From: Gallionella sp.
GTDB lineage: Bacteria; Pseudomonadota; Gammaproteobacteria; Burkholderiales; Gallionellaceae
Assembly: GCA_028714075.1 (NCBI GenBank)
Contig: JAQTMZ010000006.1
Location: forward strand, 124,001 to 188,000
DNA: 64,000 nt
Direction: 5' to 3'
The translations under genes were made by a program, and so were the position numbers. The stretch's first letter is position 1. Each line of letters opens with the position of its first letter. The notes beneath the pieces were generated by a model. That model ran no database searches and was not told the DNA's origin. It saw only the letters and a program-made list of their open reading frames with translations. Shown piece after piece: positions 8,632 to 40,114 of this stretch.

Positions 8632-10332
8632 ATGCTCGATGAATTTATTCACGAACCGCGTATCGCGTATTTCTCGATGGAGATCGCGCTGCGCAATGAA
8701 GTCCCGACCTACGCCGGAGGATTGGGTGTACTCGCCGGCGATACCATGCGCTCGGCCACCGACCTTGATCTGCCGATGGTGGCGGTCAGCCTGGCAAGTC
8801 ACGCCGGCTATTTCCGCCAGGAAATCGACGCGCAGGGCCGGCAGTTGGAACATGCGGCGACGTGGGACATCAGGCATTGGGCGCAGTCCCTCGACGCCAA
8901 GATTGCCGTGCAGATCGATGGGCGCACGGTGTGGATCGGCGCCTGGCTGTATGTGCTCGAAGGCCACATGGGAGGCCGCCAGCCGGTGTTGCTGCTCGAC
9001 ACCGACCTGAACGAAAACAGCAGTGACGACCGCGAAATCACCCACTATCTCTATGGCGGCGACAACGTCTACCGGCTCAAGCAGGAAATCGTGCTCGGGC
9101 TGGGCGGCGTGCGCCTGCTGCATGCAATCGGCTTCACCATCAAGCATTACCACATGAACGAGGGACATTCCGCCCTGCTCGGGCTGGAACTGATGCGGCG
9201 CTATACTTATTCCGCCGAACACCTGCGGCCCGGCGAATCGCGCTATGACATTCCGCGCGTGCGCGACCTGTGCAGCTTTACCACCCACACTCCGGTCGAG
9301 GCCGGACATGACCGTTTTTCCTATGATCTGGTGCAGCGTGTTCTCGACAACGGTTTCAATGCCGAGACTCTCAAAAGCCTTGCCGGGGAGGATAGCCTCA
9401 ACATGACACGGCTGGCGCTGAACCTGAGCGAATACGTGAACGGCGTCGCCAGGAAACACGCCGAAATTTCCAACGCAATGTTCCCCGGCTACAAGGTGCA
9501 CGCGATCACCAACGGCGTGCATCCGTATACCTGGGCTGGCGAAAGCTTCCGCCAGCTTTACGACCATTACACCCCCGGCTGGTGCCACGAGCCGCAGTTG
9601 CTGATGCGCGCCGACTGCTGCATTCCGGAAGCTGCGATCTGGCAAGCGCATGTCCAGGCAAAACAGCATCTCATCGATAAAGTGCAGGCGCTCACCGGCG
9701 TAGTGCTCAAACCCGATGTCCCGATATTCGGCTTCGCGCGGCGCATGACGGCGTACAAGCGCCCCGACCTTTTGTTTTCCGACCTGGAACGGTTACGTGC
9801 AATCGCGCGCAAATACCCGCTCCAGATTGTGCTTGCAGGCAAGGCGCATCCGCAAGATGAAAACGGCAAGCATCTAATCGAACAGTTGTATGCGCATGCG
9901 CGTACCCTTGCCGACACGATACCGGTGGTCTATCTGCCCGATTATGATCTGGCGCTTGCACAGGCGCTGACTGCAGGGGCGGATGTGTGGCTCAACACGC
10001 CGCTGCCGCCGCTCGAGGCGTCGGGCACCAGCGGCATGAAAGCAGCATTCAACGGAGTACCCAACCTCTCGGTACTCGACGGCTGGTGGATCGAAGGCTG
10101 CATCGAAGGCGTAACCGGCTGGGCAATCGGCGATGCGGCGGGAATGGCTGACAGCAATGCAAATGCGCTTTACGACAAACTCGAACAAGTAGTGCTGCCG
10201 CTGTATTACAGCCACAGCAGCAATCCCGGCGGGTGGCTCAGGGTGATGAAGGGCGCGATCAGCAAGAACGCCTCGTACTTCAACAGCCACCGCATGATGC
10301 GCCGCTATGCGACGGAAGCATATGCGCGGTAA
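8632..10332 (+). CDS. glgP: Alpha-glucan (glycogen/maltodextrin) phosphorylase
   Basis: A 566-aa GT35-family phosphorylase of the short bacterial type, releasing glucose 1-phosphate from alpha-1,4-glucans. The N-terminus (PRIAYFSMEIALRNEVPTYAGGLGVLAGD) is the family signature. The catalytic pyridoxal-phosphate lysine is in EASGTSGMKAAFNG, Lys470 by my count. HMNEGHSA and FGFARRMTAYKRPDLL motifs are also present. It starts at an ATG after AAAAAGGAGACG, a strong ribosome site. No other glycogen genes are adjacent, so it appears to stand alone downstream of the copper operon. Confidence 0.93.
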   Translation: MLDEFIHEPRIAYFSMEIALRNEVPTYAGGLGVLAGDTMRSATDLDLPMVAVSLASHAGYFRQEIDAQGRQLEHAATWDIRHWAQSLDAKIAVQIDGRTVWIGAWLYVLEGHMGGRQPVLLLDTDLNENSSDDREITHYLYGGDNVYRLKQEIVLGLGGVRLLHAIGFTIKHYHMNEGHSALLGLELMRRYTYSAEHLRPGESRYDIPRVRDLCSFTTHTPVEAGHDRFSYDLVQRVLDNGFNAETLKSLAGEDSLNMTRLALNLSEYVNGVARKHAEISNAMFPGYKVHAITNGVHPYTWAGESFRQLYDHYTPGWCHEPQLLMRADCCIPEAAIWQAHVQAKQHLIDKVQALTGVVLKPDVPIFGFARRMTAYKRPDLLFSDLERLRAIARKYPLQIVLAGKAHPQDENGKHLIEQLYAHARTLADTIPVVYLPDYDLALAQALTAGADVWLNTPLPPLEASGTSGMKAAFNGVPNLSVLDGWWIEGCIEGVTGWAIGDAAGMADSNANALYDKLEQVVLPLYYSHSSNPGGWLRVMKGAISKNASYFNSHRMMRRYATEAYAR

Positions 10333-10726
10333 TTCTCGATCTTCTTATAGCAATGCATCAAGGATGCCTCTAAAAAACTTAGGGGTCGCCCAAGTGCAAC
10401 CCTTCTCTACTACCCTCTTTCCGGCAGGCAATTCGGCAACACGAAACCCGGCTGAGTGCCACAAGGAGACGTTTAAGCTCGGCAACGCGACTGTCTCATC
10501 CTCGGCCAAAGCAGAAATTCAGAATAGAGGTGAGCTACTTCCGCTCTGCGCTAATTGCCGCCAGTCGAACATGCGCCGCAAAGCCGACGTTCATTCTATT
10601 AGTCGGATGGTCACTGACCACGCTACTGGAGCCTGCTGCTGCCCTTCCTATGCAGCGAAATGAGCAGAGGAATAAAATTTATGCGATAGTTTCAGCCTCT
10701 ATATCCTTGTCTGATCAGTCTTAGAA
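10333..10726. other. Intergenic region upstream of the WYL regulator
   Basis: I see no gene here that I can support. The open frames have no ribosome sites and no recognisable products. The last 60 bases are AT-rich and probably hold the WYL gene promoter, but no clear -35/-10 pair stands out, and the TGTGCGAC-type operator found three times downstream is absent here. Confidence 0.5.
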
Positions 10727-11737
10727 ATGGCTCAATTACCCCCAGATACCCTGTTGCGCCAATGGCAAATGTTGCGCATGATTCCGCGCTACCCGCTGAA
10801 AATCACAGCCAGAGAACTTCATGCGCGCCTGCAATCGGAGCAGTTCGAGGTTACCAAGCGCACTGTGGAGCGCGATCTCCTGTCCTTGTCAGAATTGTTT
10901 CCGCTGGTATCAGATGAACGAGATAAGCCCTACGGCTGGAGTTGGGCAAAAGACGCGCCGACATTCAGCTTGCCCGGCTTGAGCCATAACGAGGCATTGA
11001 CTCTGGCAATGGTGGAGCAACACCTGAATACCTTGCTGCCAGCTTCAACGCTAGACCAACTCATTCCATACTTCAAAGCAGCACGACAACATTTGAGCAG
11101 CATTCCTCAAGCAGAGCGCACACGCTCCTGGTTGAACAAAGTGCGCACCGTACCGCCAACACAGCCATTGCTGACGCCCACAATTAAACCTGCCGTCCAG
11201 CAGGTCGTCCATGAAGCATTGCTTGCCGACCGTCAATTGGTGATTAAATATCTCAAACGGGGCGAGAGTGAATCTGTTGAATATCGGATTCACCCGCTGG
11301 CCATCATTCAGCGTGGTCAGATCGTTTATTTGTATTGCCGCTTTTTCGACTATGAAGATGGTCGGCTGCTTGCGCTGCATCGCATACAGACCGCGATGAT
11401 GCAGGAAGAAAAAAGCAAGGCCCCGGTCAATTTCTCAATCGATGAGGTCATTGCCAGCGGTGTGCTGGGTTTTGGCGAGGGCAACGTTATCAAACTGGAA
11501 GCATTGTTCAGTCGCGAGGTGGGCGAGCACCTGCAAGAGACACCGCTGAGTGTCGATCAAACCGAAAAACTGCAAGATGACGGCAGGATGCGCATTGTCG
11601 CCACAGTGACAGATACCCCGCAGCTTCTATGGTGGCTGCTTAGTCTGGGTGATGGGGTGGAGGTATTGAAGCCCAATACGCTCCGTCAGTCCGTATCGGA
11701 AATCATCAACCGGATGCAAGCCAACTACCAAGGCTGA
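10727..11737 (+). CDS. WYL-domain transcriptional regulator
   Basis: A 336-aa regulator with an N-terminal winged helix-turn-helix (about residues 5-75, including KRTVERDLLSLSELFPL), a WYL ligand-sensing domain (about 150-225, with RIHPLAIIQRGQIVYLYCRF and LLALHRIQ), and a C-terminal WCX extension (about 245-330). WYL proteins bind inverted repeats and often control phage-defence loci (BrxR of BREX and CapW of CBASS are repressors). Three copies of a palindrome lie just downstream, each overlapping the promoter of a separate unit, so I propose those as its operators. It is upstream of, and co-directional with, the first unit. Confidence 0.88.
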   Translation: MAQLPPDTLLRQWQMLRMIPRYPLKITARELHARLQSEQFEVTKRTVERDLLSLSELFPLVSDERDKPYGWSWAKDAPTFSLPGLSHNEALTLAMVEQHLNTLLPASTLDQLIPYFKAARQHLSSIPQAERTRSWLNKVRTVPPTQPLLTPTIKPAVQQVVHEALLADRQLVIKYLKRGESESVEYRIHPLAIIQRGQIVYLYCRFFDYEDGRLLALHRIQTAMMQEEKSKAPVNFSIDEVIASGVLGFGEGNVIKLEALFSREVGEHLQETPLSVDQTEKLQDDGRMRIVATVTDTPQLLWWLLSLGDGVEVLKPNTLRQSVSEIINRMQANYQG

Positions 11738-11762
11738 ACCACCCAAGTCGCCACGATGTATT

Positions 11763-11785
11763 TGTGCGACTCAAAGTGTCGCAGC
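11763..11785. promoter_or_regulatory. Operator O1 with extended -10 promoter
   Basis: Palindrome TGTGCGAC-N7-GTCGCAGC (N7 = TCAAAGT). Nine bases after its GTCGCA half lies TG-G-CATGAT at 11790-11798, an extended -10. The palindrome therefore covers the -35 position, as expected for a repressor site. O2 and O3 have the same N7 spacing and the same 9-bp distance to a TGn-type -10. Confidence 0.7.
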
Positions 11786-11813
11786 AGCATGGCATGATAT
11801 ATCCATACAATTA

Positions 11814-12089
11814 TTGGATAGCAACATGAATGCATTTCTGCTCTTTGCCAGTTCGTTCACCATCGTTTTCGCCTTCTCATTCCAGCAGCACAACATCCAC
11901 TACCGCCGTTATCGGCTTGCGGTGGTCAATGCGTTGTTGATCGACTTGATGCATCTCGTGCTTCTCAAGTTGGGTTCTGGCGCAACTTCATCTGAGATGG
12001 TGGCTTTTCTGATAGGTGGGCCGCTGGGAACAATGACGGCAATGTGGCTGAACGATAGGTTGTTCGCCACTGCTGAAGCCGAGGCGTGA
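11814..12089 (+). CDS. Small three-helix membrane protein (paralogue 1)
   Basis: About 87-91 aa with three hydrophobic helices: MNAFLLFASSFTIVFAFSF, LAVVNALLIDLMHLVLL, and MVAFLIGGPLGTMTAMWL followed by NDRLF. It is a close paralogue of the protein at 18048, sharing QQHN.HYRRYRLAV and FLIGGPLGT..AMWLNDR. The start is uncertain: the ATG at 11826, or the TTG at 11814, which gives MDSNMNAF and parallels MDESMNAF in the paralogue. Neither has a clear Shine-Dalgarno. In general architecture it recalls small membrane proteins of phages and defence loci, but I do not assign a family. It is the first gene after O1, 6 bp before the zinc-ribbon protein gene. Confidence 0.7.
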   Translation: MDSNMNAFLLFASSFTIVFAFSFQQHNIHYRRYRLAVVNALLIDLMHLVLLKLGSGATSSEMVAFLIGGPLGTMTAMWLNDRLFATAEAEA

Positions 12090-12095
12090 TCAAAT

Positions 12096-13415
12096 ATGTT
12101 CAAAAAAGTCGAGACAACGAGCAGGCGTAAATTCCTTAAATCCACGATTTATGCAGCGTTGCTCGCTTCATTTCGAGCCTATGGAGTCCCGCAGGTATTG
12201 ATGCCGGATGTATCCGGCGCAAAAGGCACCCCAGCAGCAACTGATGTCCAGTATATCGAGGCATTAATGGCGCAATATTTTGCGGCGAAGTTGGCATGCA
12301 AATATGAAATCGGTGAAATTGCCGCATCAGATATTGAGAGCCGGTTCACGTCGGATTTTATTTTGGCATTTCGGAAGCGAGATCAGAAGTATTGGTCTTA
12401 TCAACAGGCGCATCCTCCAGTTGTTTTGGAAATTCACCAAGAAGGAGATGCAGCTAAGGTAGTTACAGCAGAGCCTTCGGAGGTATATGTCTATACCTTG
12501 CAGAAAACACACGTGGGCTGGCTGATCAATCAGATAGCCTGGAAATGCAGCACTTGTGATGGAACTGGGAGCGAGGAAGGCTACAAATGCATTGACTGCC
12601 ACGGAGAGGGGTGGAATTACGGAGATTTTGCTTGTCAGGCAGGCCAAGAAAACTTGGATGCTCAGGTGAAGGTAGTTCCTGAAAATCTGGTTGCATCAGG
12701 TTTATTGTTAAAAGATGTAAAAAATGAGGCGGCGCCAAAAATCGATATTAGGGAGCTGGTCGATATGCACAGTGCTCAGTTCTACCATTCCAGGTTGAGT
12801 GCGGGGCAGAGAATAGACATTCTGTTGGCCGCTGATGAGGGGGGGTTGGCCAAGGCGCTTGACAGTTTTCAAGACGAAATCTCTCCGGATGCATTTAATC
12901 AACTAGCTCAAACAGCCGCCCATCTGTTCCGGTTAAGGGATGAACCAGAGGTAAGGCAACAGGCTTTGTTAGATAGCGCGGCACAGGTCGATATCGAGGT
13001 CAAGGCTATCGAAGTCTTAATGCATAGGCACTTCGCAAAGTTTGATCAAATAACGCTTGGAGAGTCATTAGGCAGGAGTACTTTTCTTTCTAGGTACTTT
13101 ACGCCGATATACTGGAAAAGAGCAGAAACTGATTTTCTCGATCAACGCCGAGATTACATGTCTTTCCCTCCCGATGTTGTATTGTCGGTTGATCGTAATG
13201 GAGACAATGCGACTGTGGTCACATCTAAAGCTTTAAGTGATAAATCCGGTATTCACAGGGGGATTTATCATCTGAAGAGATTAGGCGCTGAATGGAGGAT
13301 AGATAAATTAGGTTGGGAGTGCGTCCTTTGTATGGGAACCGGGCTCACTTATGAAGAAGTTTGCATACGTTGCAAGGGCGAGAAATGGACTTATAGCGGG
13401 GCATCAGCCCGGTGA
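12096..13415 (+). CDS. Tat-targeted protein with two NTF2-like/zinc-ribbon modules
   Basis: A 439-aa protein starting with a textbook twin-arginine signal (TSRRKFLKS, residues 8-16), so probably exported folded. It holds two copies of one module: a ~100-residue alpha/beta domain of NTF2-like appearance (AHPPVVLEIHQEGD; FPPDVVLSVDRNGD) followed by a DnaJ-style zinc ribbon. The ribbon cysteines are C151/C154 with C165/C168, and C409/C412 with C423/C426, in CxxCxGxG-type motifs ending W.Y. A helical linker joins the modules. The single-module protein at 18369 is homologous. Function is unknown. The pairing with a membrane protein under O1 suggests an envelope-associated role. The NTF2-like call is by pattern only. 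Confidence 0.65.
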   Translation: MFKKVETTSRRKFLKSTIYAALLASFRAYGVPQVLMPDVSGAKGTPAATDVQYIEALMAQYFAAKLACKYEIGEIAASDIESRFTSDFILAFRKRDQKYWSYQQAHPPVVLEIHQEGDAAKVVTAEPSEVYVYTLQKTHVGWLINQIAWKCSTCDGTGSEEGYKCIDCHGEGWNYGDFACQAGQENLDAQVKVVPENLVASGLLLKDVKNEAAPKIDIRELVDMHSAQFYHSRLSAGQRIDILLAADEGGLAKALDSFQDEISPDAFNQLAQTAAHLFRLRDEPEVRQQALLDSAAQVDIEVKAIEVLMHRHFAKFDQITLGESLGRSTFLSRYFTPIYWKRAETDFLDQRRDYMSFPPDVVLSVDRNGDNATVVTSKALSDKSGIHRGIYHLKRLGAEWRIDKLGWECVLCMGTGLTYEEVCIRCKGEKWTYSGASAR

Positions 13416-13574
13416 TACCGAATAGAAGTTTTTCCACAACGCAAAAAACTGTCTCTAATGCACTCCAATAAGCAGGGGCGACATTCAGATGAACGACAAG
13501 GTTTTCAATCGCTCCCAGGCTGAAGTAGTTTAGACTGCACGGTTAATTCAAAATATTATTTACAGGAGATGTAA

Positions 13575-16337
13575 ATGAAAGGTTTGTCCAAGTCGCGCAT
13601 CATCGCGTGGAAGCAGTGCCCAAAGCAGTTGTGGTTGCAAGTTCACAAACCATCGCTGATCGTGCAGTCTGAAGCGACCAAGCGGAATTTTCAGGTCGGC
13701 AATGCGGTGGGTGAAGCGGCGCGTAAAGTTTACCCAGCCGGAGAATTGATTGAGCATGTCTATGATCTCAAGGCGGCTCTAGCAGCTACGCAGGCCGCAC
13801 TATCCAAGAAATCCAACGTTCCCTTGTTTGAAGCGGCCTTCCAACATGAGGGCGTACTGATTCGTGCGGACGTGCTGTTGCCGGAGAAAAACGGCTACCG
13901 CATGGTTGAAGTTAAATCCAGCACCGGCCTCAAGGATTATCACTTAAATGATTGCGCGGCTCAAACCTGGGTGGTCAAGCAAAATGGCGTCTTGTTGACC
14001 TCTGTGGAGTTGGCGCACATTGACACATCATTTATTTACCAAGGTGATGATGACTATCGTGGCTTGTTCCGGCATGTCGTCCTGGATGAACAAATTGAGC
14101 CGCTTCTGGAGCAGGTGCCAAAATGGGTAGAGGGTGCGCGCACAACTTTGTGCGGCGATGAGCCAGCCATCGAACCGGGTGAGCAATGTACCGCGCCATT
14201 TGAATGCCAGTTCTATGCTTATTGCACGCGAAACATGGCACAGGCAACCGCACCGGAGTTTCCTCTGGAAGTTTTCTATCGGATGCAAACTGGCAAGAAG
14301 GAAGAGTTGCGCGCTCAAGGCTATGAAGATGCATTGACTGTGCCCGAAACACAGCTCAACGAAACCCAACGCTGGATACAGCGCGTCAGCCGTGCGGGCA
14401 AGGCGGAATTGAAGCCTGCGGCACAACAGGAGTTGGCGGCCTTGCCGTACCCGCGCTACTACCTCGACTTTGAAACCATTGCGCTGGCTGTGCCACGCTG
14501 GGAGGGAACGCGCCCCTATAGTACGCAGGTGCCATTTCAGTGGTCATGCCACATTGAGGACGAACCGGGGAAATTGCGCCATGCCATGTTTCTGGATACC
14601 TCCGGTGGCGACCCGCGCCGTGCCTTTGCAGAGAGCATGGTCAAAATACTTGGTCAAGATGGGCCGGTCATTGTCTATAACCAGTCGTTCGAGAAATCAC
14701 GCATTAAAGAACTGGCCGAGTACTGCGTTGATCTCGCTGATGACCTGCTCGCCATCAATGAGCGCGTCGTCGATTTGTTGCCGATTGCACAGGCCAACTA
14801 TTACCACCCTGATATGAAGGGTTCATGGTCTATCAAGGCTGTACTCCCCACTATTGCGCCTGATTTAACCTACGACAATCTTGAGGTCGGCAATGGAGAA
14901 GATGCGCAGGTCGCTTATGCCGAGTTGCTGGACTCGAATACCTCCAACGAGCAGCGGAAGAAATTAATTGAAGGTTTGCTGGCCTATTGTGAGCGTGACA
15001 CCTTGGCAATGGTGAGAATTGCTTGGTTTTTCCAGCGTGGTGGCAATATGGATGGGGTGCAGTTTCCCGAGCCTGAGGAAAAATACCTGATGACGCGCAG
15101 CCGGGCCACAATTGAGGTGGTGGGTGATGTGGTGACGCAGGAGGATATGGGCCGAGCGGATCAGGCTGCATTGGACGCATCCGCTAATAATGACGGAATT
15201 GTCATAGAAAAAAAGCGGCTATGTTTTTATCTGGATAAAGAAAGGCAATCGCATGCCCCGCTTGGAAAACACTCAAAAGAACTGACGAGTGTTTGGGAGA
15301 TAGAAAGATTGACTCCATCAAGAAGGCCGACAGCATTTTCATCAGAGGTTATTAATAGTCTGGTAAATAAAATAAAGGATAAAGGGTGGGATAAAGACCT
15401 GCCCACTCTGTATAAATGGTCGCTTCGAGATCAATTAATAAACTTAAAAAAGGTGTGCGAAGAGATGCCGAAGCTACACACAAAATGGCTAGATGATCTA
15501 TGCGACACTCCTGCAGATTCAGAGAACAATGAGCCGACGTTTGCTATGACCTTAGAATTGCGAGAGCAAATACCGGCCATGCTAAAAGCCAGCAATGCAG
15601 ATGAGATGGGTGAGATAGATGCAGTGAAAAATATAAAGATATGGATTGTTAAAGACTGGGGCGGCATTCAGTTAAGACATGAGCAGAGTGAAGATAGACT
15701 TTCAGACTGTATCAAACAGGCTGTTATTCAAGATGCTTCTGTGGTTAAGCAGCATGCGAGAAATAAAAGTGGTAAGAAGGAATTCTCTCTTGAACGAATT
15801 GCAAGTTGGTCTAAATATTTGGCTTTTAAGTTTCCACAGCGCTGTGCTATTTACGATGCGAGGGTAATATTTTCGCTTAACTGGTTGCTATTAGAAATAA
15901 AGAATGCTGCTTCAGAACAAAAAAAATCTAAAATTGGAGATGAGGGAGAATTCAAGTTTTTCCCGTTTCTCGAAGGCCAAAACTCAGTAATGGGATTGCT
16001 TAATTACGACATTCATTTGTTGTTATCTCATTATCACGAGGACGTTTTGCTTAAAGCATTGGATGATGACATTAAGAATCGAAATAAGAAGGGTGGTAAA
16101 TCCAGGCTACGAAGCAGCCTTGAAAAAGGTTTGTTTATACGCGATCAAGAAGCCTATTCAGAATATTGCGATCTGCTTAATGTGCTTGCAGAGACTATTT
16201 ACCCCGATAAAGACGGTGTTGCCGATACTCATCGCCTCACGAAAATCGAAATGATTCTTTTTTCAATTGCGGATAAGGCAATTGCAACAGAAGTCATGAA
16301 TTCCTTTACTGGAAAGATATCAGCATCTCACAGTTAA
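13575..16337 (+). CDS. DUF2779 Fe-S nuclease with novel C-terminal extension
   Basis: A 920-aa protein. Residues 1-220 are a Cas4/AddB-like PD-(D/E)XK nuclease: D99, E112-V-K114, and an Fe-S cysteine set of C15 with C205, C211 and C217. Residues about 290-500 are the second DUF2779 part, RNase H/DEDD-like (YYLDFETIA, D298 and E300; VIVYNQSFEKSRI; YCERDTLAM). DUF2779 proteins normally end near here at about 500 aa. This one continues for ~400 residues of markedly AT-richer, lysine-rich sequence that I cannot assign; IASWSKYLAFKFPQRCAIYDARV near 760-785 looks like a conserved core. It starts after ACAGGAGATGTAA. No operator-type palindrome precedes it. A role in phage defence is inferred from the island. 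Confidence 0.8.
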   Translation: MKGLSKSRIIAWKQCPKQLWLQVHKPSLIVQSEATKRNFQVGNAVGEAARKVYPAGELIEHVYDLKAALAATQAALSKKSNVPLFEAAFQHEGVLIRADVLLPEKNGYRMVEVKSSTGLKDYHLNDCAAQTWVVKQNGVLLTSVELAHIDTSFIYQGDDDYRGLFRHVVLDEQIEPLLEQVPKWVEGARTTLCGDEPAIEPGEQCTAPFECQFYAYCTRNMAQATAPEFPLEVFYRMQTGKKEELRAQGYEDALTVPETQLNETQRWIQRVSRAGKAELKPAAQQELAALPYPRYYLDFETIALAVPRWEGTRPYSTQVPFQWSCHIEDEPGKLRHAMFLDTSGGDPRRAFAESMVKILGQDGPVIVYNQSFEKSRIKELAEYCVDLADDLLAINERVVDLLPIAQANYYHPDMKGSWSIKAVLPTIAPDLTYDNLEVGNGEDAQVAYAELLDSNTSNEQRKKLIEGLLAYCERDTLAMVRIAWFFQRGGNMDGVQFPEPEEKYLMTRSRATIEVVGDVVTQEDMGRADQAALDASANNDGIVIEKKRLCFYLDKERQSHAPLGKHSKELTSVWEIERLTPSRRPTAFSSEVINSLVNKIKDKGWDKDLPTLYKWSLRDQLINLKKVCEEMPKLHTKWLDDLCDTPADSENNEPTFAMTLELREQIPAMLKASNADEMGEIDAVKNIKIWIVKDWGGIQLRHEQSEDRLSDCIKQAVIQDASVVKQHARNKSGKKEFSLERIASWSKYLAFKFPQRCAIYDARVIFSLNWLLLEIKNAASEQKKSKIGDEGEFKFFPFLEGQNSVMGLLNYDIHLLLSHYHEDVLLKALDDDIKNRNKKGGKSRLRSSLEKGLFIRDQEAYSEYCDLLNVLAETIYPDKDGVADTHRLTKIEMILFSIADKAIATEVMNSFTGKISASHS

Positions 16338-16356
16338 AAATCTAGGTTTTTGCTTA

Positions 16357-16379
16357 TGTGCGACACAACATGTCGCACC
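16357..16379. promoter_or_regulatory. Operator O2 with extended -10 promoter
   Basis: TGTGCGAC-N7-GTCGCACC (N7 = ACAACAT), the same architecture as O1 and O3. Nine bases beyond the GTCGCA half is TG-T-TACTCT, an extended -10. It lies 20 bp after the DUF2779 stop and about 140 bp before the first gene of the second unit, leaving a long leader. Confidence 0.68.
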
Positions 16380-16519
16380 ACCCTGTTACTCTTTGTTTGC
16401 ACCAAAATTGATTCGCTGATTTAAAGATTGGCAATTGGATTGTCGGATGCGATGCCCTTTCATCTTTGCGCGAGGGGCATTCCTTAACAGAGCAAGCAAA
16501 AACAACCAGGAGATTTGAA

Positions 16520-16726
16520 ATGGCAATCGCTAGTGCAGTGGAGAAAAACGGGAATGTCTATATCTATAACGAAAAAGGTGGCGTTATAGCTGCGGTGCAT
16601 GCTGGCACTGGACCGAACGATGGGTTAAAGGGGTATACCTCTTCAACGGTCAGCATCCGGCGAGGCTTTTATGTGTACATCTATAACGATAAGGGTGGAA
16701 TTGTAAACACAATTGCTACCAGCTAA
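16520..16726 (+). CDS. 68-aa beta-hairpin repeat protein
   Basis: I chose the ATG at 16520, 6-8 bases after CCAGGAGATTTG, over an upstream in-frame start. The protein has two near-identical strands-and-turn units, NVYIYNEKGGVIAAV and YVYIYNDKGGIVNTI, separated by GLKGYTSSTVSIRRG. Small proteins of this pattern (VYxYxEKG...GYTSxTVS) are familiar to me as uncharacterised genes in accessory regions. I know no function. It is the first gene after O2. Confidence 0.7.
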   Translation: MAIASAVEKNGNVYIYNEKGGVIAAVHAGTGPNDGLKGYTSSTVSIRRGFYVYIYNDKGGIVNTIATS

Positions 16727-16757
16727 CCTCGATACGGGAGCGCAGCTTGTTAGGCAG

Positions 16758-17147
16758 ATGTCGAGTGAAAAAGTCTTCGGAGAAGATGTTGTGAAAAATA
16801 ATTTGCCTCCTTTGAATGAAGTACTTCTTAACCAGATTTTTGATGGTGTCTATGGTGGCGCTGGGCAGCAGCCAAATGAGCTGATAGGTCATGAACCATT
16901 GCAGGCATTGATTGATACGCTCTATGCCATGCAACGGTTCAATCACCGCTTTAGGCCGGACGACACAGGCCGCTTGTTTGACTTGTTCGATGCGCAGTTT
17001 AATTTCGAACGCAACTCAGAAGGCACTACGCTTTGGCTGGCGCTAATCCTTGCCGTTCAGGAGCTTTATGGTTTGAGCGATAGCAGGCTGATGGAGGCAC
17101 TTGGAGAAATGATCGTTAGCCAGTCGTTAACCCACATCAATGGTTAG
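16758..17147 (+). CDS. Hypothetical helical protein of the O2 unit
   Basis: A 129-aa acidic, mostly helical protein starting MSSEKVFGEDVVKNN. An upstream in-frame TTG at 16713 would extend it by 15 codons, but that overlaps the preceding gene. The ribosome site is weak for either start; GGGAG lies 17 bases before the ATG. No motif I recognise: there are no cysteines and a hydrophobic helix LWLALILAVQELYGL near the C-terminus. Its stop is 2 bp before the start of the DnaB-like gene, so the two are very likely co-translated. Confidence 0.6.
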   Translation: MSSEKVFGEDVVKNNLPPLNEVLLNQIFDGVYGGAGQQPNELIGHEPLQALIDTLYAMQRFNHRFRPDDTGRLFDLFDAQFNFERNSEGTTLWLALILAVQELYGLSDSRLMEALGEMIVSQSLTHING

Positions 17148-17149
17148 TC

Positions 17150-17986
17150 ATGGCGGATATTTATAACTTTGAGCGTCATAAGGTTTTGTCGCATGTATCG
17201 TCGGCTATTCTTGAAGTTGTGGAAGAGTTGGAGGCCGCCTACAACGCTGAGCCCTGTGCTCGTCCAGAAGATCGAGATATGTACGATTACTTTGGGGATG
17301 TATTTGCTCCAGGTGATCTGGTCGTGCTTTCTGGAAATAACGCAGTGCGGAATGTTTTCTTCCTTAGTGCAATGATCAACCAGTCAAAAATTTATGATTC
17401 ATGCTGCGTTCTTAGCCATGATTCAAAGCTGTTTGCCAGAATTTTGCTTATGCAGGAGTGCGGAGTCAGTTATAACAAAATGTGTGGTTTGGAGTGGTTT
17501 GATGAAAAGGATTGGGATCGCTTTACCGATGCAATAGAGCTGCTGAATTCTTCCAAGTTGTTTTTGGGCGATATTCCATTAAATGTGAATGAGTTGGATG
17601 CCCTTATTAAGTGGGAGATCATTAGAGGCAGGATAAGTAGCGATGAAGTGCGCTACCAACTGTTTGTCGACAACTTGGCCCCGTTGCTTGATGCCGCCCA
17701 TCTTGAAGGCAGAAGTCCATCATTAGCGCTTTCATCCGTACTGTCGGAGCTGAAGCAAGTGGCCGTGGCAAGGCGGTTGCAGGTGTGCGTTGCTCATCAT
17801 GCGCATGAAGCCAATTGGGTCGAAGAACAATCAGTTATTGCACGCCATGCGGATGCAGTTCTCACGCTGGAATCACGCCCAGATCGATGGGAATTCGGAC
17901 AGGAGGCAAACTGCACGTTTTCCATGAGCGTCAATGGGCAGGTTACTGTCGAGCCAACTTCGCTAAGAATCGACGTACCTATGTAA
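17150..17986 (+). CDS. DnaB-like RecA-fold protein with destroyed Walker A
   Basis: A 278-aa protein aligning by eye along the C-terminal ATPase domain of DnaB helicases. FAPGDLVVLSGNNAVRNVFFLS (52-73) sits where DnaB has its P-loop. DEKDWDRFTDAIELLNSSKLFLGD (118-141) matches the DnaB segment before its Walker B. LFVDNLAPLL (171-180) is in the Walker B position, then LSSVLSELKQVAVARRLQVCVAHHAHE (194-220) and QSVIARHADAVLTLE (227-241). The GKT/S of Walker A is replaced (AVRN), so ATP hydrolysis is unlikely. It may be a scaffold, sensor or decoy of the replicative helicase. It lies 2 bp after the previous gene and ends 7 bp before O3. Confidence 0.6.
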   Translation: MADIYNFERHKVLSHVSSAILEVVEELEAAYNAEPCARPEDRDMYDYFGDVFAPGDLVVLSGNNAVRNVFFLSAMINQSKIYDSCCVLSHDSKLFARILLMQECGVSYNKMCGLEWFDEKDWDRFTDAIELLNSSKLFLGDIPLNVNELDALIKWEIIRGRISSDEVRYQLFVDNLAPLLDAAHLEGRSPSLALSSVLSELKQVAVARRLQVCVAHHAHEANWVEEQSVIARHADAVLTLESRPDRWEFGQEANCTFSMSVNGQVTVEPTSLRIDVPM

Positions 17987-17993
17987 TTTCTCT

Positions 17994-18016
17994 TGTGCGC
18001 CGCAAAGTGTCGCACA
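17994..18016. promoter_or_regulatory. Operator O3 with extended -10 promoter
   Basis: TGTGCGCC-N7-GTCGCACA (N7 = GCAAAGT). TG-C-CATGAT at 18021-18029 follows the GTCGCA half by nine bases, identical in spacing and -10 hexamer to O1. It starts 7 bp after the stop of the DnaB-like gene. Confidence 0.7.
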
Positions 18017-18047
18017 AGGGTGCCATGATCCATCCATTCAAGTTGAG

Positions 18048-18356
18048 ATGGATGAAAGTATGAATGCGTTCCTGTTGTTTCTGAGTTCCTTTATGATCGT
18101 TTTTGCCTTCGCATTCCAGCAGCACAATGTCCACTATCGACGTTACCGCCTCGCGGTGGCAAATGCCTTGCTGATCGATGCGCTGCATTTGGTGCTGCTC
18201 AAGCTGGGAACTGCCGCGACGATTCCTGAAATGGCCGCATTCCTGATCGGTGGGCCATTGGGAACACTGGCGGCAATGTGGCTGAACGATAGAATATTTG
18301 CAGATACCGGAGCGATGCTTTTGGACAAGTCTGCCTCCAGTATTTCCCGACTATAA
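18048..18356 (+). CDS. Small three-helix membrane protein (paralogue 2)
   Basis: 98-102 aa, a paralogue of the protein at 11814. It shares MNAFLLF.SSF, AFQQHN.HYRRYRLAVANALLID, LKLG and FLIGGPLGT.AAMWLNDR, with a longer hydrophilic tail (ADTGAMLLDKSASSISRL). The start is the ATG at 18048 or at 18060. The conserved distance from the O3 -10 suggests both genes have a very short leader. It is the first gene of the third WYL-operator unit, 12 bp before the single-module zinc-ribbon gene. Same unknown function as its paralogue. Confidence 0.7.
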   Translation: MDESMNAFLLFLSSFMIVFAFAFQQHNVHYRRYRLAVANALLIDALHLVLLKLGTAATIPEMAAFLIGGPLGTLAAMWLNDRIFADTGAMLLDKSASSISRL

Positions 18357-18368
18357 GCTTTCATATAT

Positions 18369-18779
18369 ATGAAAACTATTGAAGAATTCATGCAGAGCTA
18401 TTTTGCCGAATGGACAGAATTGAACTATATTCAAGAAGCCAATAGCGAGGCTTTTCTCGAGAGATTCGTTAGCATCACATATTTACATAAAACGCGTGAG
18501 GAACGTAATAAAGACACTCTGTATCGGCAAATGCACCCTGCGGTTATTTTGAGTGTTGAGAACAAGGGGGAAACGACAGAAGCTATTGTGTCACAGCCGT
18601 TAGGGTGCGAGCATGAACTCCGCCTCTATCACTTACGGCTGACAAAATACGGTTGGAAAATTGAGCGCAAAGGATGGCAGTGCTATTTTTGCAAAGGGTC
18701 TGGGCGGCGAGACGAAGATCGTTGCTCGTCTTGCGATGGTGTGGGTTGGCGCTATTATGGAGCATCAGATAGAAAATGA
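18369..18779 (+). CDS. Single-module NTF2-like/zinc-ribbon protein
   Basis: A 136-aa protein equal to one module of the Tat-targeted protein at 12096: a ~100-residue domain (MHPAVILSVENKGE, LRLYHLRLTKYGWKIERKGW) followed by a DnaJ-like zinc ribbon (C105/C108 and C119/C122) and the shared ending W.Y.GAS. Unlike its relative it has no signal peptide, so it should stay in the cytoplasm. Its stop overlaps the start of the 5'-nucleotidase gene (ATGA), suggesting translational coupling. Function unknown. Confidence 0.65.
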   Translation: MKTIEEFMQSYFAEWTELNYIQEANSEAFLERFVSITYLHKTREERNKDTLYRQMHPAVILSVENKGETTEAIVSQPLGCEHELRLYHLRLTKYGWKIERKGWQCYFCKGSGRRDEDRCSSCDGVGWRYYGASDRK

Positions 18780-19693
18780 GCAGTACACAAAGCATCCAAG
18801 AAAAACTAGTCGTCGCCATCTCTTCCCGTGCCCTGTTCAACTTGGACGAGAGCCATGCCGTTTTTGAAACCGAGGGCGTAGAGGCGTATTGCCGCTATCA
18901 GGTGGAGCGTGAAGAAATTCCGCTGGAGCCGGGTGTGGCGTTCAGTCTGGTGAAGAAGCTGCTGGCGCTGAATGGGCGGGAACCCGCCAACCCGCGTGTC
19001 GAGGTGATCCTGCTATCGCGCAACAATGCAGATACCGGGTTGCGTATCTTCAACTCGATCAAACATCACGGCTTGAATATCAGCCAGGCGGCATTTACAC
19101 GCGGCGCAAGTACGCATCCCTACATTTCAGCATTTGGTGCGCAACTGTTTCTATCCGCAGAGCCAGATGATGTGCGCAAGGCGTTGGAAGCTGGTTTCGC
19201 TGCCGCGACCATCCTATCATCTGCGGCTGTGCCGGTGGCTGATGCCAACCCAGCACAGTTGCGCATCGCGTTCGATGGTGATGCGGTGTTGTTTTCGGAT
19301 GAGTCGGAACGTATCTACAAACGAGATGGGCTGGATGCGTTTCAGAGCAATGAAACGCTGACGGCCAAGCAGCCACTACCCGGTGGGCCGTTCAAGAACT
19401 TCCTCGCCATGCTGCACCGGATTCAACTGGACTATCCGGCAGATACTTCTCCCATCCGCACCGCACTCATCACCGCACGCGGCGCACCCGCTCACGAGCG
19501 CGTCATCCGCACCCTGCGCGCATGGAACATCCGCATTGATGAAGCGCTATTCCTCGGTGGTAAAGATAAAGGAGAATTCCTGAAAGCATTCGGCGCAGAT
19601 ATTTTCTTTGACGACCAACAGAAACATTGCGAATCGGCACGCCAGCACGTTGCCACCGGCCATGTGCCGCATGGGGTGGCGAACGAAGGCTAA
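18776..19693 (+). CDS. Cytosolic 5'-nucleotidase (PF06189 type)
   Basis: A 305-aa protein of the bacterial 5'-nucleotidase family: KLVVAISSRALFNLDESH at the N-terminus, VEVILLSRNNADTGLRIFNSIKHHGLNI, AFDGDAVLFSDESE (the HAD-like aspartate motif) and FFDDQQKHCESA at the end. Members dephosphorylate nucleoside monophosphates. It overlaps the zinc-ribbon gene by 4 nt and so would be expressed from O3. Whether it belongs functionally to the WYL unit or is a core gene (rmuC follows) is open. Nucleotide-degrading enzymes do occur as defence effectors, which makes the coupling noteworthy. Confidence 0.82.
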   Translation: MSSTQSIQEKLVVAISSRALFNLDESHAVFETEGVEAYCRYQVEREEIPLEPGVAFSLVKKLLALNGREPANPRVEVILLSRNNADTGLRIFNSIKHHGLNISQAAFTRGASTHPYISAFGAQLFLSAEPDDVRKALEAGFAAATILSSAAVPVADANPAQLRIAFDGDAVLFSDESERIYKRDGLDAFQSNETLTAKQPLPGGPFKNFLAMLHRIQLDYPADTSPIRTALITARGAPAHERVIRTLRAWNIRIDEALFLGGKDKGEFLKAFGADIFFDDQQKHCESARQHVATGHVPHGVANEG

Positions 19694-21588: not shown

Positions 21589-21617
21589 TTGACTATCTGT
21601 ATCCTATACAATACACT
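21589..21617 (+). promoter_or_regulatory. Promoter of the HigB-like toxin gene
   Basis: TTGACT (21589-21594), a 17-bp spacer, then TACACT (21612-21617). A dyad TGTAT-N8-ATACA (21598-21615) covers the -10 region and could be the antitoxin operator. The toxin ATG at 21625 is only 8 bp downstream of the -10, so the transcript would be essentially leaderless. Confidence 0.6.
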
Positions 21618-21624
21618 TAATCGC

Positions 21625-21915
21625 ATGAACTCTATCCAAACAACGGAGGCATTTGACGACTGGCTTGCCGGGCTGAAGGATAGGCAGGCAGTGCGGCGCG
21701 TACAGGTAAGAATCGACCGCGCTGAGGATGGCAACTTTGGCGATTGCGAACCAGTTGGCGAAGGTGTTTCTGAAATGCGAATTCATTACGGGCCAGGTTA
21801 TCGTGTGTATTTCGTGCAACGTGGAATCGAGATAGTGATATTGCTGGCTGGAGGCAATAAATCTACTCAGTCAAAGGATATTAAAACAGCGCTTGAACTA
21901 GCGCGAAAAATTTAG
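21625..21915 (+). CDS. HigB/RelE-like toxin (Gp49-like, HI1419 type)
   Basis: A 96-aa protein starting MNSIQTTEAFDDWLAGLKD. It shows the RelE-superfamily core RVQVRIDRAEDGNFGD, SEMRIHYGPGYRVYFV and IVILLAGGNKSTQSKDIKTALELA, typical of the addiction-module killer proteins of the HI1419 family. These are predicted ribosome-dependent mRNA interferases. The antitoxin gene follows 9 bp downstream. An in-frame upstream TTG at 21589 is the -35 box, so I reject it as a start. Confidence 0.88.
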   Translation: MNSIQTTEAFDDWLAGLKDRQAVRRVQVRIDRAEDGNFGDCEPVGEGVSEMRIHYGPGYRVYFVQRGIEIVILLAGGNKSTQSKDIKTALELARKI

Positions 21916-21924
21916 GAGATTGAA

Positions 21925-22218
21925 ATGGGAAAGATCAAACTACGCAAATGGGATAGTGCCGAGCACCTCAAAACCGATGAGGATATGGTGCTCTATCTGG
22001 AAGCCTGTCTCGAAGAAGCTGGAGATGATGCTGCCTTTATTGCTAAAGCACTCGGTACCATTGCCCGCGCCAAGGGCATGACGCAACTAGCGAAGGAAAC
22101 CGGCTTGGGTCGCGAAAGTTTATACAAAGCTTTATCCGGCGAAGGCAATCCAAGTTTTGCAACTATTCTCAAAGTCACCACGGCGCTAGGTATCAAGTTA
22201 CACGCACAGCCAGCGTAG
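21925..22218 (+). CDS. HigA-like antitoxin (HI1420 type)
   Basis: A 97-aa addiction-module antidote protein with a C-terminal Xre-like helix-turn-helix (MTQLAKETGLGRESLYKALSGEGNPSFATILKVTTALGIKL), the signature of the HI1420 subgroup. N-terminal residues (RKWDSAEHLKTDEDMVLYLEACLEEA) form the toxin-contacting part in this family. It starts after TTAGGAGATTGAA. Toxin-first order is usual for this type. It likely autoregulates through the dyad at the toxin promoter. Confidence 0.9.
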   Translation: MGKIKLRKWDSAEHLKTDEDMVLYLEACLEEAGDDAAFIAKALGTIARAKGMTQLAKETGLGRESLYKALSGEGNPSFATILKVTTALGIKLHAQPA

Positions 22219-39760: not shown

Positions 39761-40114
39761 CTAGCCAAACAGCATCCGCTGTATCGGTTCTTTCCCGTTT
39801 CTCAGCAACCTGTCGAGGGCAGCTTGCGCCTTGTCTGTGATGCCTTTTCGTTTGCCCATTTCGATTAGTTTGTCCAACGCGCGCTCATACTGATAATCGG
39901 CTTCCCGCCAGTCTGCTGCGATATCCCTGGTCGCATGCTTGGTCAACTTCAGCATTCCTGACTTCACTTGTACCAAATACGCGCATGTCCTACCTTTTTT
40001 TGCCACGATAGCAATGTGACGGTGGCGATCCATCAATACCTGACCGCAGGTTATATTTATGAATGCGGATGAAAGAAAATCCATGGTATGAAAATCAACT
40101 GGGTCTTTGGCCAT
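39761..40114 (-). CDS. Hypothetical protein
   Basis: 117 aa from the ATG at 40114 (MAKDPVDFHTMDFLSS); a later ATG at 40084 is also possible, and neither has a clear ribosome site. The middle is beta-like (RHIAIVAKKGRTCAYLVQVKSG). The C-terminal half is helical and charged (ADYQYERALDKLIEMGKRKGITDKAQAALDRLLRNG). I do not recognise it. It lies 71 bp upstream of the methyltransferase-like gene on the same strand. Confidence 0.55.
   Translation of the reverse strand: MAKDPVDFHTMDFLSSAFINITCGQVLMDRHRHIAIVAKKGRTCAYLVQVKSGMLKLTKHATRDIAADWREADYQYERALDKLIEMGKRKGITDKAQAALDRLLRNGKEPIQRMLFG

Follow-up and report, generated by a model that had tools for sequence, protein, structure and literature searches.

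A 64,000-nucleotide stretch of DNA from Gallionella sp. (contig JAQTMZ010000006.1, positions 124,001 to 188,000 of the forward strand; referred to here as the window) encodes, between positions 10727 and 19693, a WYL-domain regulator followed by accessory genes that are led at three places by the same palindromic box, each time at the same distance from a –10 hexamer. This three-promoter set is a real, local regulon. Judged from sequence and predicted fold, the WYL protein is probably an activator resembling DriD of Caulobacter crescentus, which would switch on a local, probably acquired gene set from three promoters in cis. The regulator gene (10727..11737, plus strand, 336 residues) encodes a winged helix-turn-helix (wHTH) domain followed by WYL and WCX domains (Pfam matches of 4.3e-11 and 2.8e-16).

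All three boxes lie on the plus strand: box 1 at 11763..11784 (core 11765-11783), box 2 at 16357..16378 (core 16359-16377) and box 3 at 17994..18015 (core 17996-18014, with one mismatch). They share a 19-bp core, TGCGAC-N7-GTCGCA, with a spacer of 7 nucleotides, and are followed by the –10 hexamers CATGAT (11793-11798), TACTCT (16387-16392) and CATGAT (18024-18029), respectively, with a TG one base upstream of the hexamer at each box, as the original prediction had described. In all three the hexamer starts 9 nucleotides past the core; the distance is thus the same throughout, as predicted, and the figure of 9 holds when it is counted from the 19-bp core, whereas from the 22-base palindrome it is 8. 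If the –35 position is set at 17 nucleotides ahead of the –10, it lies within the box and, read by eye, matches TTGACA in 3, 1 and 2 of six letters in the three boxes.

The palindromes with their 7-nucleotide spacer stand above chance. A 22-base search of the window allowing up to three mismatches gave nine matches, six of which are the three sites read on both strands, relative to a mean of 2.2 and a maximum of 5 in 100 shuffles; the 19-base core with at most one mismatch occurs at four places, i.e., the three boxes and position 39917 (shuffles: mean 0.29, maximum 2). The host genome, of 2.83 Mb in 27 contigs, has 11 places that match the core with one mismatch or none, and 13 that match a reversed control pattern. 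Three of the 11 are the boxes; at the other eight, one of them being position 39917 of the window, neither side has an xAxxxT hexamer at offset 9, and these further near-matches look like chance. Stop-to-stop frames measure 128-690 residues around the eight and 67-139 around the boxes, ranges that do not by themselves set the two groups apart. The sites are therefore confined to the starts of three gene units, as had been claimed; a promoter reading of the box near C1:227325 was rejected, this match lying inside a gene read as polyphosphate-kinase and being attributed to chance. The genome scan found no box with at most one mismatch for the window's own WYL gene. What does not stand is the independence of the three sites: the 302-nucleotide stretch from 11762 at box 1 into the first gene is 76% identical to the stretch at box 3, so boxes 1 and 3 derive from a single promoter by duplication, and the window therefore holds two independent occurrences rather than three.

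The box and its spacing across the WYL family

A sample of 369 genomes from the class of the host contained homologues of the WYL protein in 32, the host genome being one of them. Around the first 33 WYL loci, the box with up to two mismatches in 14 letters occurred 23 times, compared to about 3.4 in shuffles. Later sets added 20 loci from the order and 80 named loci, the latter fetched when the motif and offset were already known. In the 133 WYL loci taken together, exact TGCGAC-Nk-GTCGCA had 54 occurrences at k=7; the eleven other spacings from 2 to 13 together had one. The de-duplicated set of 125 loci (1.89 Mb) held 106 boxes with at most one mismatch in the 12 core letters, the rule used from here on unless noted otherwise, and 48 exact ones, relative to 3-13 and 0-1 in eight shuffles; at least one box was present in 74 of the 125.

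The boxes also have a preferred position. With up to two mismatches, they lay in the interval from –250 to +40 relative to the WYL start at 45 of 123 loci (shuffles: mean 1.3; random places elsewhere in these loci: 2-11), and within the same interval of the start of DUF2779 genes at 10 of 29 (shuffles: mean 0.15; random places: 0-3). Among the 369 class genomes, the exact 14-base box occurred in 12 and a control pattern in 5; a WYL homologue was present in 7 of the 12 and in 25 of the 357 others (Fisher P 1e-5, in a partly circular test that includes the window's genome and genomes used to tune the motif). In five of these seven genomes no more than about 6 kb separates the box from the WYL gene; the distance is about 75 kb in G236, and G038 carries the two on different contigs. 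The box being characteristic of its family, the WYL protein of the window very probably acts at the three boxes.

A variant of the box was seen in eight of the closest relatives (L146-L150 and L152-L154), mostly as CGCGTCA-N5-xCGTCGCA, about 91-98 nucleotides before the WYL start; at offset 9 it is followed by TATATT in seven and by TACTTT in L153. No such variant was seen ahead of the window's WYL gene.

The distance to the –10 proved equally characteristic. A hexamer was scored as –10-like if it had A at position 2, T at position 6 and four of the six letters of TATAAT, a rule under which box 2 of the window (three of six) would fail. In 212 orientations from the 125 loci, such hexamers stood at offset 9 in 54 cases, compared to 16 at offset 8 and 2 at offset 10; offsets outside 8-10 had a mean of 3.5 and a highest count of 9. 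In the 80 named loci, the 56 new sites left once those already seen had been removed by sequence had 31 such hexamers at offset 9. The consensus of the 54 offset-9 sites, which were chosen for having a –10, is TGCGACA-N5-TGTCGCA-N9-TATaAT. An activator that holds RNA polymerase needs a fixed distance and a repressor does not; activation is therefore favored.

Kinship of the regulator to DriD

The original prediction had likened the protein to the repressors BrxR and CapW. Profile, fold and fixed spacing point instead to the activator DriD. In a profile search against the PDB, the WYL-WCX part matched DriD at 9e-20 to 4e-19 and Arthrobacter PafBC at 5e-20, followed by mycobacterial PafB/PafC at about 1e-12, CapW at 4e-4 and BrxR at 8e-3, and a second profile comparison left the order of DriD/PafBC over CapW/BrxR unchanged. 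Foldseek with the predicted WYL model (predicted local distance difference test score, pLDDT, 88) gave E-values of 2.7e-15 for DriD, 5e-9 for CapW and 2e-7 for BrxR, and VIA-align likewise put DriD first. By profile and Foldseek, then, BrxR and CapW are weaker matches than DriD/PafBC and not the nearest ones.

Published systems are described here and below from excerpts of their sources. DriD is a Caulobacter activator switched on by single-stranded DNA; its consensus is ATACGAC(X)7GTCGTAT, its sites lie over the –35 at an equal distance to the –10 across its promoters, and these promoters have one to two of six matches to the –35 consensus (preprint PMC12340889). The window's protein and sites share with DriD (PDB 8tp8, 8tpk, 9pfq, 9pfv) the wHTH-WYL-WCX order and a GAC-N7-GTC box of equal spacer, set over a poor –35 at a fixed gap to the –10. 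Of three DriD promoters printed in the excerpts, two match the spacing: didA has CAAGGT at offset 9, and driD/CCNA_03891 has CAATCT, on the side taken to face CCNA_03891. Since the WYL sequence and the site layout resemble those of a DNA-damage activator, the genes are probably turned on rather than held off. The two systems differ in several respects: identity by fold alignment is 17-18%, the box arms are TGCGAC in the window and TACGAC in DriD, the window's regulon is one local accessory cluster, and its relatives often carry a box at their own gene.

A further difference concerns the pocket motif. In 51 aligned rows, R213 is kept in 40 and R219 in all 51, and position 216, the middle Arg of the motif in DriD, is Ala in 40 and Arg in none. 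In SiwR, changing two pocket Arg abolished binding of single-stranded DNA (PMC10693628), and these two may correspond to positions in the window's WYL protein. SiwR and PafBC of mycobacteria are, like the proposed regulator, WYL activators that serve the response to genotoxic stress from sites immediately ahead of the –10; PafBC differs in being a heterodimer that does not bind its site without RNA polymerase, and SiwR in controlling dinB-like genes.

Some observations temper this reading. In their VIA-align Z scores, some DriD chains are level with CapW and BrxR, and the alignment of one CapW chain runs to the end; moreover, the pocket motif is without one Arg that is common to DriD and PafBC.

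Two side observations concern WYL genes elsewhere. The host genome has three further WYL-domain genes, at C1:217073, C2:242375 and C9:139599. A WYL gene 43% identical to that of the window was found among proteobacterial relatives on a contig filed as Alistipes senegalensis (L160), through contamination or transfer.

Genes of the region and neighborhoods of its relatives

All genes of the region are on the plus strand, and the names memA and znA are labels coined in this analysis. Unit 1 consists of box 1, memA1 and znA1. memA1 (11826..12089; 87 residues from ATG, in an open reading frame (ORF) listed from TTG 11814) encodes a small holin-like membrane protein that matches PHROG 7045, annotated as holin, at E 2.4e-6. 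znA1 (12096..13415, 439 residues) encodes a zinc-ribbon protein whose two internal repeats and similarity to znA2 were seen by sequence comparison; its DnaJ CXXCXGXG match of 8.1e-7 is under Pfam's cut-off. After a gap of 160 nucleotides follows a gene for a DUF2779 protein (13575..16337, 920 residues), perhaps a member of unit 1, which has a weak Cas4-like N-terminus (1.2e-4), a DUF2779/RNase H-like core (DUF2779 1.4e-45, RNase_H_2 5.6e-5) and an additional C-terminal domain. The C-terminal part is in a different frame in L129, and in L131 it is a separate ORF fused to the orf6 homologue.

Unit 2 consists of box 2, orf5, orf6 and a gene for a DnaB-like pseudo-ATPase. orf5 (16520..16726, 68 residues) has a homologue in L126 (50% over 64 residues, E 5.6e-18) and orf6 (16758..17147, 129 residues) a 48% homologue inside the fused ORF of L131 (E 2.7e-26); a Pfam scan of both returned no family above cut-off. 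The DnaB-like protein (17150..17986, 278 residues) matches DnaB_C at 7e-4, under the cut-off. The canonical P-loop motif is GK[ST], and the P-loop stretch of this protein, read by eye, is without it.

Unit 3 consists of box 3, memA2, znA2 and a nucleotidase gene. memA2 (18060..18356, in an ORF listed from ATG 18048) encodes a second holin-like membrane protein (PHROG 7045, E 1.6e-5), 79% identical to that of memA1, and znA2 (18369..18779, 136 residues) a second zinc-ribbon protein with about 30% identity to each half of znA1; its predicted fold, with a pLDDT of 49, was not used. The last gene (18776..19693, 305 residues) encodes a PF06189 5'-nucleotidase (Pfam 1.8e-134) that also matches the PADLOC candidate PDC-S08 at 7.1e-138, over model positions 17-317 of 323. 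PDC-S08 is a predicted single-gene candidate, whereas the window's gene is the third in a box-led unit. Just past RmuC, at 21589-22218 of the window (plus strand), a Gp49-like protein and an addiction-module antidote protein form a probable toxin-antitoxin pair.

The gene set was probably acquired. G+C per kb is 0.43-0.54 over 11-20 kb, compared to 0.55-0.61 over 5-11 kb and 0.51-0.60 over 20-25 kb; the low value fits horizontal gain, and the downstream edge is not sharp. In eight genomes of the genus and family, four stretches of which were inspected, the window's two flanks were not found side by side at high identity, as they would be at an empty site. RmuC was present in three of the eight (G480, G616 and G646; E 1e-60 or better). 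The phosphorylase also had matches in three, one in G519 at 84% and others in G480, G555 and, as a second copy, G519 at 40-41%, the latter probably being paralogues; in G480 a distance of about 4 kb separates the 41% paralogue from RmuC, and the island is absent. Among the 369 class genomes memA was found only in the window's genome and as one 35% match in G131, the 6.6-kb contig of which holds no box with up to two mismatches. memA1 was not similar to a membrane protein of L071 above the level of shuffles, and memA2 had a single weak match in phages (E 0.1). No stretch of the viral contigs matched the WYL peptide patterns, in a test sensitive to close relatives only.

Parts of the gene set recur with the box in relatives. 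DUF2779 stands near the WYL gene in 34 of the 133 loci and the nucleotidase in 7, counted before de-duplication. In L131 (4197-11995), from the same genus as the window, a DUF2779 gene behind a one-mismatch box is accompanied by a WYL gene and the fused protein of DUF2779 C-terminal part and orf6; also present are an exact box (position 10515), a fragment resembling the zinc proteins and a nucleotidase with 81% identity, and the window's modules occur here in a different order and place. That exact box stands ahead of a small ORF, about 580 nucleotides before the nucleotidase. In L126 (6570-7679) a one-mismatch box is followed by a DnaB-like protein with a degenerate P-loop and then the orf5 homologue, i.e., the pair of unit 2 elsewhere. 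The two DnaB-like proteins are weakly similar (E 0.021, z 4.2), and the link rests on the orf5 neighbor and the box in one genome (L126 and L190 being the same contig). L148 (5718-6524) and L154 (11380-12186), both Nitrosomonadales, have near-identical starts of a 269-residue protein behind a box after the WYL gene.

A list of 111 box-gene pairs was drawn up by a looser rule (three of six letters, offsets 8-10) and so contains chance pairs. A PADLOC scan of 20 of these box-led proteins gave three IetA-like double-AAA ATPases and one DdmD as strong matches, two restriction-modification proteins that matched strongly but have doubtful boxes, two weak matches, and 12 proteins without a match. The DdmD gene (L180, Pseudomonas sp. 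A-1) lies 54 nucleotides behind a one-mismatch box; in Vibrio cholerae the WYL protein VC1772 adjoins ddmDE, a likeness of gene neighborhood only, the role of VC1772 being described as under study in the excerpted review PMC12409362. Sir2, ADP-ribosylglycohydrolase and FtsA-like proteins are also box-led, the last in L177 (7941-9218) behind a box with TATGCT at offset 9. Several candidates were set aside: the boxes leading the restriction-modification genes in L144 and L145 lie within the WYL coding sequence, at its 3' end, making these genes merely neighbors, and the exact box after the WYL gene in L143 sits at the end of an opposite-strand gene.

A WYL match was present in 31 plasmid records, eight of which were examined. 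The neighbors there include BREX-2 PglZ and BrxD (L240), an McrC-family protein and a type I methylase (L241), DUF2779 (L235 and L236), and DUF1819 and DUF1788 (L234), which we take to be BrxA and BrxB. A box with at most one mismatch is present in four of the eight and a two-mismatch box in two more; L237 and L241 have none with up to two mismatches. In L240, a Sphaerotilus plasmid, the WYL gene and an ATPase-Sir2 unit flank an exact box at 9082, close to BREX-2 genes and with no xAxxxT at offset 9. Adjoining a defence gene does not itself demonstrate control; phage defence is a plausible role for the neighborhoods of the WYL family, and the window's gene set is, on its sequence, a candidate for it.

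Activation, repression and the likely regulon

We propose that a WYL dimer would bind boxes of the type TGCGACA-N5-TGTCGCA where these cover the –35 position, at promoters whose –35 is poor and whose –10 is weak, and would hold RNA polymerase there, the fixed 9-nucleotide gap being what the contact between the two would need. It would serve three promoters in cis, those of memA1-znA1 (perhaps with the DUF2779 gene), orf5-orf6-DnaB-like and memA2-znA2-nucleotidase. The trigger may be single-stranded DNA or other nucleic acid arising in DNA damage or phage attack, and the outcome would be a stress- or infection-induced accessory response, in which the nuclease-like protein, the nucleotidase and the holin-like protein may limit the invader or the infected cell.

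The same DriD-like activator could instead serve a DNA-damage or cell-division program rather than phage defence, a possible reading that we do not prefer. DriD itself drives didA, bapE, recJ and dnaG in the DNA-damage response and controls a division inhibitor; the box leads an FtsA-like gene in L177; a nuclease and a nucleotidase are also compatible with DNA or nucleotide metabolism; and in a panel of 100 Pseudomonas strains PDC-S08 was not associated with resistance, being split 50/50 between resistant and susceptible strains (PMC10855318, in excerpt). The 12 of 20 scanned proteins without a PADLOC match fit this reading too. Defence genes are nevertheless found among some relatives' neighbors, and the window's genes are accessory, have a G+C below that of the upstream flank and differ among relatives.

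Repression is less likely. The WYL protein would then sit on its promoters as BrxR and CapW do, being released on phage sensing. These two are wHTH-WYL repressors of defence operons that act on palindromes, defence genes adjoin some WYL relatives, and the box overlaps the promoter core, where the TGn ahead of the –10 could give the promoters activity of their own; the tie in VIA-align Z also speaks for such a protein. However, the reported repressor sites vary in position, overlapping the –10 for CapW, lying just downstream of the promoter for BrxR of E. fergusonii and over the –35 for Acinetobacter BrxR, whereas the distance from box to –10 is constant across divergent genomes. The Acinetobacter operator, as the one published site compared by eye, has no arm in common with the box. 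This fixed geometry and the nearer relatives DriD and PafBC, favored by both profile and Foldseek, weaken the repressor reading. That a different regulator acts at the boxes, with the WYL gene adjacent by coincidence, is very improbable despite the three other WYL genes of the host, as the box accompanies the WYL family over 125 loci at counts far beyond those of shuffles, in many cases at the start of the WYL gene itself, and exact-box genomes are enriched for the homologue in the partly circular test.

With activation by a DriD-like protein as the preferred reading, the kind of regulator is already known, and its tie to mobile defence-like islands and the window's gene set are new within the literature searched. 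That literature, from which subscription papers are mostly absent, contained no paper joining 'WYL domain' and 'DUF2779', and DriD-type control of defence genes is not described in the excerpts of PMC9122601, PMC12340889, PMC10693628 and PMC12409362. In the excerpted sources, BrxR and CapW, the WYL regulators described at defence operons, act as repressors, and the activators that sense single-stranded DNA (DriD and PafBC) serve DNA repair. More tentatively, a large DriD-like WYL family in proteobacteria may sense single-stranded DNA or related nucleic acid and switch on mobile defence islands, with DUF2779 protein, double-AAA ATPase, Sir2, ADP-ribosylglycohydrolase, DdmD and PDC-S08 among their genes, via TGCGACA-N5-TGTCGCA-N9-TATAAT; the window's set would then be a new inducible defence system of that regulon. 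If so, a DriD-like family tied to mobile defence-like islands would join both groups of WYL regulators and would suggest how such islands switch on upon DNA damage or invasion, and the box, nine nucleotides and –10 would provide a simple sequence rule for finding island genes, unknown ones included.

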